A stretch of DNA of 64,000 bases from an uncultured Roseobacter sp. GTDB taxonomy: Bacteria; Pseudomonadota; Alphaproteobacteria; Rhodobacterales; Rhodobacteraceae. The position numbers were made by a program, and so were the translations under genes. Under the pieces are notes generated by a model that worked only from the letters and a program-made list of their open reading frames with translations, ran no database searches and was not told the DNA's origin. Below are positions 59,024-61,435 of the stretch, in pieces (position 1 is the stretch's first letter; every line of letters starts with the position of its first letter). The DNA lies in contig NZ_CANLNE010000003.1 in the NCBI RefSeq assembly GCF_947492555.1, positions 310,001-374,000 of the forward strand, in the 5' to 3' direction.

Positions 59024-59788
59024 TTACTTAATTTTTCCGGGCAAGCTCAGATCGCCAGAGGCGACATCGAAAACATCCACGACGCAGAGCAGAGGTGAAT
59101 GAATGTTCGCATTCACGCGCAAGGCAGATGTCACGCCGTCGTAGGCGACGCCTGCCAATTCGACATCGCTTCGAAAGCCGACGTTGATCGCAATCTCCGG
59201 ACCATCAAAAAGCGGTGTGAACCCCGGACTGTCGAGAAAGATCGGAAAACCTGGCCAAGTCGCCGGGAGTTGGGGGCTCTCCCCCTCGGGAATATCGCGC
59301 ACGGCAAGCGCGCCCACGCCGCATGCCTCGGTCGGCGTCAGAACCACCCAATGACTGTGCCAGATCACGCCGTCATTGGTTGGATCGCCATCGTTGTTTT
59401 CATCATAGAGCGGCGTGTCGTCAAAGTCGGGGTGGCTGGTCGCCGCCAGCGCGAGAATTCCCGTGCCGCTTTCGAAACCGACGGCGGAAGGATCCAGTGA
59501 CGTGGGCCAGACATAGGACAACACGGTCGAACCGCCCACTTCACCAATAGGGTGAGGGACATCGGCGCCCGCCATGCCGTTTGTGGTCATATGGAACGTG
59601 ACGACATTGCCGGTGCGGTGTGCATGTGCCGCCAGAATGTCGAATGAGGCAACCTTTGTGCCATCTGCATCTGAGAGAACTGCGCCTTTCTGGGTGACCG
59701 CGTGCCCGTGATCGTGATTGCCCGCCGCGAAGGCCGTCGCGCCGAGAAGGACAATACCTGCAGAGAGGGCAAAGAGAGTTTTGGTCAT
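59024..59788 (-). CDS. Secreted His/Asp-rich protein, unknown family
   Basis: I do not recognise this 254-residue protein. It has a signal peptide (MTKTLFALSAGIVLLGATAFA, cut near residue 22) and begins NHDHGHAVTQKG, then many His, Asp and Glu residues, with DENNDGDPTNDG near 152 like a calcium or metal site. Three cysteines are present (one in the signal region is absent). It is divergent from the MarR-family gene with 87 bp between starts and shares its operators. It may be a metal- or oxidant-responsive periplasmic protein. AAAGGATACGAC precedes the ATG. Confidence 0.55.
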   Translation of the reverse strand: MTKTLFALSAGIVLLGATAFAAGNHDHGHAVTQKGAVLSDADGTKVASFDILAAHAHRTGNVVTFHMTTNGMAGADVPHPIGEVGGSTVLSYVWPTSLDPSAVGFESGTGILALAATSHPDFDDTPLYDENNDGDPTNDGVIWHSHWVVLTPTEACGVGALAVRDIPEGESPQLPATWPGFPIFLDSPGFTPLFDGPEIAINVGFRSDVELAGVAYDGVTSALRVNANIHSPLLCVVDVFDVASGDLSLPGKIK

Positions 59789-59807
59789 GTCGTATCCTTT
59801 CAAGTGA

Positions 59808-59875
59808 TTTCGACTCACTATTAATATCGAGTCGAAACTATTGCAATAATAATTTCGACTCGATACATTGTATCC
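59808..59875. promoter_or_regulatory. Mirror-symmetric divergent promoters with three TTTCGACTC operator copies
   Basis: TTGCAA at 59841-59846 is its own reverse complement and is placed as the -35 for both directions. Rightward: 17-bp spacer, -10 TACATT at 59864-59869, start near the marR ATG (59876). Leftward: 17-bp spacer, -10 TAATAG at 59823-59818. A perfect 13-bp inverted repeat TATCGAGTCGAAA (59825-59837) / TTTCGACTCGATA (59853-59865) has one arm inside each spacer. A third copy TTTCGACTC is at 59808-59816. Confidence 0.7.
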
Positions 59876-60418
59876 ATGGCAACAGATACGCATATCCGTG
59901 AACTGATAAACCGACTTGCAAGGTTGGATGCGGCCGCTGGCTGGGCAGGGGATTTGAACCCCTCGCAGCGCGCCGTACTCGGCTATCTTTGTCGGGCCAA
60001 CCGATTTTCCAGAAGCCCGTCGCATGTAGCGGATTATCTTGGAACAACTCGGGGAACGACAACCCAATCGCTGAAATCCCTACTCCAGAAAGGATACGTG
60101 AAGGAGCATCGTTCAGAGCATGACAGACGGGTTATCAGCTATGAGTTGACGCAAGCGGGACGCATGGCCGCGGAGCGCCCTGCGCCGTTGCAAAGTGCAG
60201 TGTCTGCGCTCGGCAGGGATGATCAGAACGCCTTGCAAAGCTTGCTGCGCAACGCGCTTCAAAATGCGCTCGCTGAAAATGAGGGCCGCGAATTCGGTCT
60301 GTGCAAAACCTGCATTCATCATCGAAACGTTGAAGGTGTTCCCTTTTGCGCATTGTTGGACGTGACGCTGTCACCTGATGAAGGAAATCAGATTTGTCAT
60401 GAACAGGAGAGCGTATGA
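59876..60418 (+). CDS. MarR family regulator with C-terminal cysteine cluster
   Basis: The 180-residue protein has a winged helix of MarR type (NPSQRAVLGYLCRANRFS; VADYLGTTRGTTTQSLKSLLQKGYVKEHRSEHDRRVISYELT, about residues 28-100) and a C-terminal extension with C143, C146, C158 and C174 (CX2CX11CX15C), possibly an Fe-S or zinc site. No ribosome binding site precedes the ATG, and the predicted transcription start is the ATG itself, so the message may be leaderless. It overlaps the MOSC gene by 4 bp (ATGA). The TTTCGACTC repeats are its likely operators. Confidence 0.85.
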   Translation: MATDTHIRELINRLARLDAAAGWAGDLNPSQRAVLGYLCRANRFSRSPSHVADYLGTTRGTTTQSLKSLLQKGYVKEHRSEHDRRVISYELTQAGRMAAERPAPLQSAVSALGRDDQNALQSLLRNALQNALAENEGREFGLCKTCIHHRNVEGVPFCALLDVTLSPDEGNQICHEQESV

Positions 60419-61104
60419 CGGCGTCCCTGACATCCCGGATAGACGGGCTTTTCGTTGGCCAGATACAAAATCGCTGGGAGGGCCGGGAGCCCTCGGCGAT
60501 TGGCAAAACGGCGGTCACCAGCCCCATGCTGATCGATGAAAACGGATTTGTTGAGGATGCGCAGGCCGATCTCAAGAACCACGGGGGATGTGACAAGGCG
60601 ATCCACCACTATGCTTCGGACCACTACGCATCATGGATAGCAGAAGGAGAGATTCCGGTGGGGACGATCCCGGCTGCATTCGGCGAAAATGTCGCCACGT
60701 CCGGCATGACCGAAGATATGCTATGTGTCGGAGATATCCTGCGTTTCGGAACAGCTGTCGTTCAGATCAGTCAAGGGCGACAGCCTTGCTGGAAGGTGTC
60801 CGAGCATACCCGGAACAGCCGTATGGCCTATCTGTTCCAGAAGACAGGGCGGACGGGCTGGTACTACCGGGTTTTGGAGAATGGCCGGGTGGCGGTGGGT
60901 AACGAGGTGCAGCTCATTGAGCGCCGACAGCCCGACTGGTCGGTCAGGCGCGTTACGGCTGCGCGCCTCACGCGGCGTATTTCCGAGGAGGATGCGGCGG
61001 AGTTGGCGATGGTGCCTGAGCTCGCCGAGGGCTGGCGTGTTGCATTCTCCAGAATGGCATCCGGAGATCGGACCGAAGACACCAGCCGACGGCTGGAAGG
61101 CTGA
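60415..61104 (+). CDS. MOSC domain protein (YiiM-like)
   Basis: The 229-residue protein has a MOSC domain (about residues 30-165): DLKNHGGCDKAIHHYASDHYASW, FGENVATSGMTEDMLCVGDILRFG, VQISQGRQPCWKVSEHT with the Cys near 125, then the C-terminal 3-alpha region typical of YiiM. YiiM reduces N-hydroxylated bases such as 6-hydroxylaminopurine with a molybdenum cofactor. It is coupled to the MarR-family regulator by ATGA, so the substrate may be a toxic or oxidised compound. Confidence 0.88.
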   Translation: MTASLTSRIDGLFVGQIQNRWEGREPSAIGKTAVTSPMLIDENGFVEDAQADLKNHGGCDKAIHHYASDHYASWIAEGEIPVGTIPAAFGENVATSGMTEDMLCVGDILRFGTAVVQISQGRQPCWKVSEHTRNSRMAYLFQKTGRTGWYYRVLENGRVAVGNEVQLIERRQPDWSVRRVTAARLTRRISEEDAAELAMVPELAEGWRVAFSRMASGDRTEDTSRRLEG

Positions 61105-61360: not shown

Positions 61361-61435
61361 TGGAGCGGGCGAGGCGATTCGAACGCCCGACCCTAACCTT
61401 GGCAAGGTTATGCTCTACCCCTGAGCTACGCCCGC
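61361..61435 (-). tRNA. tRNA-Gly (GCC)
   Basis: On the minus strand: acceptor GCGGGCG/CGCCCGC, D arm GCTC/GAGC, anticodon stem TAACC/GGTTA with loop TTGCCAA (anticodon GCC), T stem GGGCG/CGCCT with loop TTCGAAT, discriminator T and encoded CCA. All arms pair well. Confidence 0.95.

Follow-up and report, generated by a model that had tools for sequence, protein, structure and literature searches.

Where two divergent genes are separated by a gap barely longer than a pair of promoters, how are both promoters fitted into it, and can one regulator control the two? The question arises from a 64,000-nucleotide stretch of DNA of an uncultured Roseobacter sp. (here called the window), in which a marR-type gene and a gene for a secreted protein are divergently oriented with 87 bp between them. 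The marR-type gene (59876-60418, plus strand) encodes a protein with a C-terminal four-cysteine tail, and its start codon is also the putative +1 of its transcript. A MOSC/YiiM-like gene (60415-61104, plus strand) overlaps the marR stop codon and is likely part of the same transcript; a tRNA-Gly (gcc) gene lies just past it on the minus strand (61361-61435). On the other side of the gap, the secreted-protein gene (59024-59788, minus strand) encodes 254 amino acids beginning with a stretch that resembles, by eye, a signal peptide, and it is preceded by a Shine-Dalgarno (SD)-like sequence, AAAGGA (59795-59800, minus strand). The secreted protein matched no Pfam or NCBIfam family. Its profile retrieved no convincing relative from the PDB (two matches at an E value of 0.11), and its AlphaFold2 model (pLDDT, 48) was too poor for use.

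The center of the gap is occupied by TTGCAA (59841-59846), which the initial annotation had described as a self-complementary −35 hexamer lying 17 bp from a −10 on either side. The sequence bears out the symmetry and both spacings. Rightward, a 17-bp spacer (59847-59863) leads to the putative −10 of marR, TACATT (59864-59869, plus strand), which is followed by 6 nucleotides and then by the marR ATG at 59876. Leftward, a 17-bp spacer (59840-59824) leads to the putative −10 of the secreted-protein gene, TAATAG (59823-59818, minus strand). Each spacer had been said to hold one arm of an inverted repeat. The arms, TATCGAGTCGAAA (59825-59837) and TTTCGACTCGATA (59853-59865), are indeed perfectly complementary over 13 bp and can be extended to 18 bp at 94%, but the last two bases of the right arm are also the first two of the marR −10. 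Comparison with relatives, described below, marks both arms as candidate operators, the left one within the spacer of the leftward promoter. A further copy reported for this region, TTTCGACTC, is present at 59808-59816 and belongs to a degenerate third candidate operator, TTTCGACTCACTA (59808-59820), which agrees with the operator at 12 of 13 positions and overlaps the leftward −10 by 3 bp.

Perfect 13-bp inverted repeats with a gap of no more than 20 bp occurred once in the window and in none of 40 windows generated with a first-order Markov model, and the exact 11-mer TCGAGTCGAAA was found nowhere in the 4.44-Mb genome except at the two arms. Chance is therefore a poor explanation for the repeat. 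A looser pattern, WWKCGASTCGMWW, had 3 sites genome-wide, versus 12 for a reversed control pattern; two of these sites are the arms, and the third (C1:1203806; L062) falls where long open frames cover the sequence. No further regulon was seen elsewhere in the genome with the operator patterns used.

We next turned to related loci. With the window genome counted each time, the secreted protein had a match in 5 genomes among 59 near relatives, in 25 among 394 from the family (two of these being marginal), and in 17 among 385 from the class. A genome scan with the secreted protein confirmed 382 stretches; we fetched the best 80, a choice that favors near relatives. The nearest match among the scanned stretches was an uncultured Roseobacter (L086), at 98% identity. 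Among these best 80 of 382, 76 had a divergent MarR gene beside the secreted-protein gene. A MOSC relative followed marR in 45, and 42 had a redoxin gene of the AhpC/TSA type (LCPGC motif; e.g., L067 and L073) downstream of the secreted-protein gene; 24 loci had both of these downstream genes and 17 had neither. Pfam was run on two of the redoxins for this assignment. The window has no redoxin gene directly downstream of its own secreted-protein gene.

For the comparison of intergenic regions, 12 further loci, the window's own included, were added to the best-80 set, and 88 loci were analyzed. Left out of these 88 were 11 loci fetched twice; L049, L056, L058, and L059, with no MarR match in the locus; L057 and L061, with a frame-broken secreted-protein gene (as also seen in L045 and L142) and a MarR match of 70 bits; and L112, L122, L134, and L139, with no MarR match, the last two at contig ends. 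The secreted-protein genes of L112 and L122 keep two operators with no MarR gene in the fetched flank; the regulator may be encoded elsewhere in those genomes. Fifteen distant loci (L145-L159) were examined separately.

Palindromes of 13 bp were found at both promoters, beside marR, in 82 of the 88 loci; the other six fell outside this two-operator scheme. The operator across loci reads TA[G/T]CGA[C/G]TCG[C/A]TA and is often flanked by TAR and YTA. Each arm is, in relatives, a stand-alone near-perfect palindrome (e.g., TAGCGACTCGCTA), and both arms in the window are full operator copies; the inverted repeat of the window arises because two slightly asymmetric palindromes face each other. Three operators were present in 12 of the 88 loci, six of which, the window included, have the third at the place it takes in the window. 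The motif was also found upstream of genes for MarR relatives with 28 to 37% identity in genomes that have no match to the secreted protein (L008, L009, L010, and L013, with a weaker motif in L011 and L012). In six of the 15 distant loci (L145, L147, L149, L152, L155, and L156), the secreted-protein gene shares its strand with the gene for another MarR that has a four-cysteine tail, and palindromes of the type TTAGGA[G/A]TCCTAA are found instead. These six loci hint that operator and regulator changed together, and they show that a divergent arrangement is not found everywhere.

On the marR side of the gap, a TTGCA-type box begins 34 to 36 nucleotides upstream of the marR ATG in 80 of the 88 loci, and a TA is found exactly 17 bp rightward of it in all 79 two-operator loci that have the box (41 of 41 and 38 of 38 in the compact and spread layouts defined below). 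In 78 of these 79 loci, the −10 ends 5 to 7 nucleotides from the marR start codon. The right operator of L121 and L143 is 1 bp nearer the box, and yet the 17-bp spacing (to TATATA and TATAAT, respectively) and the distance to the ATG are unchanged. No SD-like 4-mer was found at marR in any of the 88 loci. For the secreted-protein gene, 85 of the 88 loci had an SD-like 4-mer at some possible start, by a more lenient count: marR starts were set by profile position, and for the secreted-protein gene every ATG or GTG in frame within the 70 codons upstream was allowed. The marR genes thus combine the two sequence features expected of leaderless genes: no SD and a −10 about 6 nucleotides before the start codon. 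The fixed distance from box to ATG and the lack of an SD-like 4-mer suggest that the marR message is likely leaderless. Comparison with related genomes supports three proposals of the initial annotation: that operator sequences lie at both promoters, that TTGCAA serves as the −35 of marR, and that the marR message lacks a leader.

Whether TTGCAA also serves the secreted-protein gene depends on the layout. In 43 of the 82 two-operator loci, which we call compact, the operator centers are 28 bp (41 loci) or 27 bp (2 loci) apart, 3 bp separate the left operator from the box, and the box lies between both promoters. In the remaining 39, which we call spread, the distance between operators is 37 to 57 bp, and only marR can use the box. 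In 40 of the 41 compact loci with a TTGCA-type box, a TA is found 17 bp leftward, and a single hexamer is thus correctly spaced to a −10-like hexamer in both directions, with the qualification that these −10s are imperfect and that the TA is partly operator flank. These leftward hexamers included a perfect TATAAT (L102) and TATAAG or TATAAA (six loci). The T and A at operator positions +8 and +9 were present in 39 of 41 and 41 of 41 compact loci, compared with 23 of 39 and 32 of 39 spread loci (Fisher P values of 0.0001 and 0.005, with kinship ignored). Two compact loci, L105 and L144, have TTGTCAA for TTGCAA, which reads TTGTCA on one strand and TTGACA on the other; leftward of it, L105 has TAGTAA at 18 bp and L144 has no TA at 16 to 18 bp. 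In two others, L053 and L131, the box is TTGCAT, and its leftward reading, ATGCAA, makes a bad −35. No marR was found near the secreted-protein gene of L112; there, TTGCAA and an operator are followed by TACAAG at 18 bp towards that gene, and the locus may have lost marR recently.

The symmetry of TTGCAA is by itself no proof of sharing, because conservation of the hexamer is as high in spread loci (38 of 39), where it is unable to serve both genes, as in compact loci (39 of 43). The leftward TA also falls within the extended operator (TAR...YTA), and 23 of 38 spread loci have a TA at 17 bp as well. We concluded that use of TTGCAA as the −35 for both directions, as the initial annotation had proposed, is supported for the compact layout by spacing and base conservation, although less firmly than its use by marR. 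Of 46 MarR proteins less than 70% identical to each other, 32 are encoded in compact loci, 30 with 28-bp spacing and 2 with 27-bp spacing. On a quick tree, the layout label changes 11 times; branches with good support require at least three of these changes, and 36 of the 79 inner branches have weak support. Ruegeria haliotis B1Z28 has two copies of the locus in one genome, one compact (L068) and one spread (L097).

We consider it probable that the MarR-type protein acts through separate operators to repress two back-to-back promoters and that, in the compact layout, one −35 serves both. Several other readings were weighed against this one. TTGCAA may serve marR only, with the secreted-protein gene depending on a weaker −35, such as TTATTG (59849-59844) with TATTAA (59826-59821), and with the 28-bp spacing reflecting contact between two repressor dimers. 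The conservation of the box in spread loci is as this reading predicts; those loci manage without sharing, showing only a weak −35-like stretch. A TATAAT-like hexamer 14 bp leftward of TTGCAA, moreover, scores like the one at 17 bp (means of 3.71 and 3.63 matches), although 14 bp is too short a spacer under σ70 rules. However, the alternative −35 is not constant in compact loci, its first two bases being either T or C, the tighter TA at operator positions +8 and +9 in compact loci is not expected, and in L112 TTGCAA faces the secreted-protein gene with no marR found. Nor does the supposed dimer contact fit well, since a turn of the DNA helix is 10.5 bp and 28 bp is no whole number of turns. 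We regard this reading as unlikely. A single operator whose arms straddle the −35, held by one bridging or looping repressor, would account for the perfect 13-bp repeat around TTGCAA in the window, and the initial annotation had taken the arms as halves of one operator. That each arm is palindromic in relatives rules out two half-sites, and the arms lie far apart in all 39 spread loci, so that the straddling arrangement has very little probability.

The remaining readings concern the hexamer itself. A generic σ70 scan listed neither of the two proposed promoters, TTGCAA matching TTGACA at 4 of 6 positions; the sole rightward match that it listed in the region was an overlapping one, TTAATA-18-AATAAT (59821-59850). 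Were this the marR promoter, TTGCAA would lie just before its −10 and overlap it, and the message would have a leader of about 19 nucleotides without an SD. Some relatives (e.g., L081, L079, and L068) do have TATAAT right after TTGCAA, but the bases at this place are not conserved as a −10 (e.g., L066 and L050), the corresponding −35 would lie over the left operator region, which is placed elsewhere in spread loci, and the constant distances from TTGCAA to the ATG and to the TA in all 79 loci would be left unexplained. We therefore think it quite improbable that marR is transcribed from this match. Finally, TTGCAA may be an element other than a −35, either the site of another regulator or a σ54 −12 box, which TTGCA resembles. 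The compact profile has no conserved GG about 10 nucleotides upstream, which rules out the σ54 element; the distances of the hexamer to the TA hexamer and to the ATG are fixed; and its place is taken by TTGTCAA in L105 and L144 and, at the matching position, in the distant loci L146 and L153. A role other than −35 is accordingly the least credible of the proposals.

The regulator belongs to the MarR family by its winged-helix domain (PF12802; E value, 5e-12; 46.2 bits against a cutoff of 27). Its predicted model (pLDDT, 90.5) has the fold of MarR/MepR/FabT-type repressors (PDB 4lln, 6jbx, and 5h3r); the best PDB matches were MepR, Rv0880, and FabT, and MarR was also matched. The difference from these repressors lies in the tail, C-x2-C-x11-C-x15-C (cysteines 143, 146, 158, and 174), which extends beyond the stretch that they match: in the 60 PDB sequences listed of 65, no match runs past about profile position 139, short of the tail. 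All four cysteines are invariant across an alignment of 41 selected sequences; in L106, which is outside these 41, the stretch with the last cysteine is absent. The pattern suggests that the tail probably forms a metal or Fe-S center. Given the cysteine tail and the MOSC and redoxin neighbors, a redox or reactive-compound signal is plausible for this MarR.

Shared core promoter elements have been described before. The divergent σ28 promoters flgAP2 and flgBP2 of E. coli flgA/flgB are predicted to have a common −35 hexamer, and transcripts from both were obtained in vitro, each dependent on its −10 (PMC12781870). That system resembles the present locus in having divergent promoters with one −35 hexamer but differs in its sigma factor and in that neither gene is a divergent repressor gene; the available portion of that account describes no counterpart of the MarR-type operator found here in each spacer (PMC12781870). 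E. coli also has many bidirectional promoters in which the −10 is shared, an example being acrA/acrR, where the divergently encoded AcrR represses both promoters (PMC12825309). These, too, are like the present locus in that one core element would place polymerase in two orientations, but in acrA/acrR it is the −10 that is shared, whereas here it would be the −35, with an operator for each promoter (PMC12825309). What the present loci appear to add is a conserved variant, σ70-type as judged from its sequence, in which each promoter has a repressor operator, one of the two messages is probably leaderless, and the layouts have interchanged during evolution. The operator sequence, in several spellings, was not found in the open-licence literature, which also held nothing joining the MarR family, leaderless, and Roseobacter or joining leaderless, transcription start sites, and Rhodobacterales. 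Among the matches listed for cysteine or Fe-S MarR proteins and for MarR with MOSC, no title or start of an abstract described the system.

We propose the following model. Dimers of the MarR-type protein, with its winged helix and four-cysteine tail, would bind separate 13-bp palindromic operators, one for each of two back-to-back σ70-type promoters, and bound MarR would block RNA polymerase at both. In the compact packing, the single TTGCAA would act as the −35 in both directions, so that one polymerase at a time could be accommodated. The marR transcript would start at its own ATG, while the secreted-protein gene would keep a normal leader. Sensing of a signal by the tail, perhaps a redox signal, would release the repressor, and both transcripts would rise; MarR would act locally, in a self-regulating divergent switch.

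A broader idea, which we put forward only tentatively and consider doubtful as a whole, is that the self-complementary shared −35 is a device kept across the Alphaproteobacteria. The leaderless repressor message and the secreted target would be forced into competition for polymerase, with their ratio set in this way. A MarR with four cysteines (Fe-S or zinc) would release the two simultaneously, and lineages would repeatedly switch between coupled and uncoupled layouts. If the hexamer is shared as proposed, the same regulator and target are wired with one common −35 in some loci and with two in others. These loci would form a natural set in which one could test directly how promoter sharing affects ratio and noise. 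The comparison also proposes a candidate operator and a conserved partner gene, both for the MarR group with the four-cysteine tail and for a secreted protein without a family.
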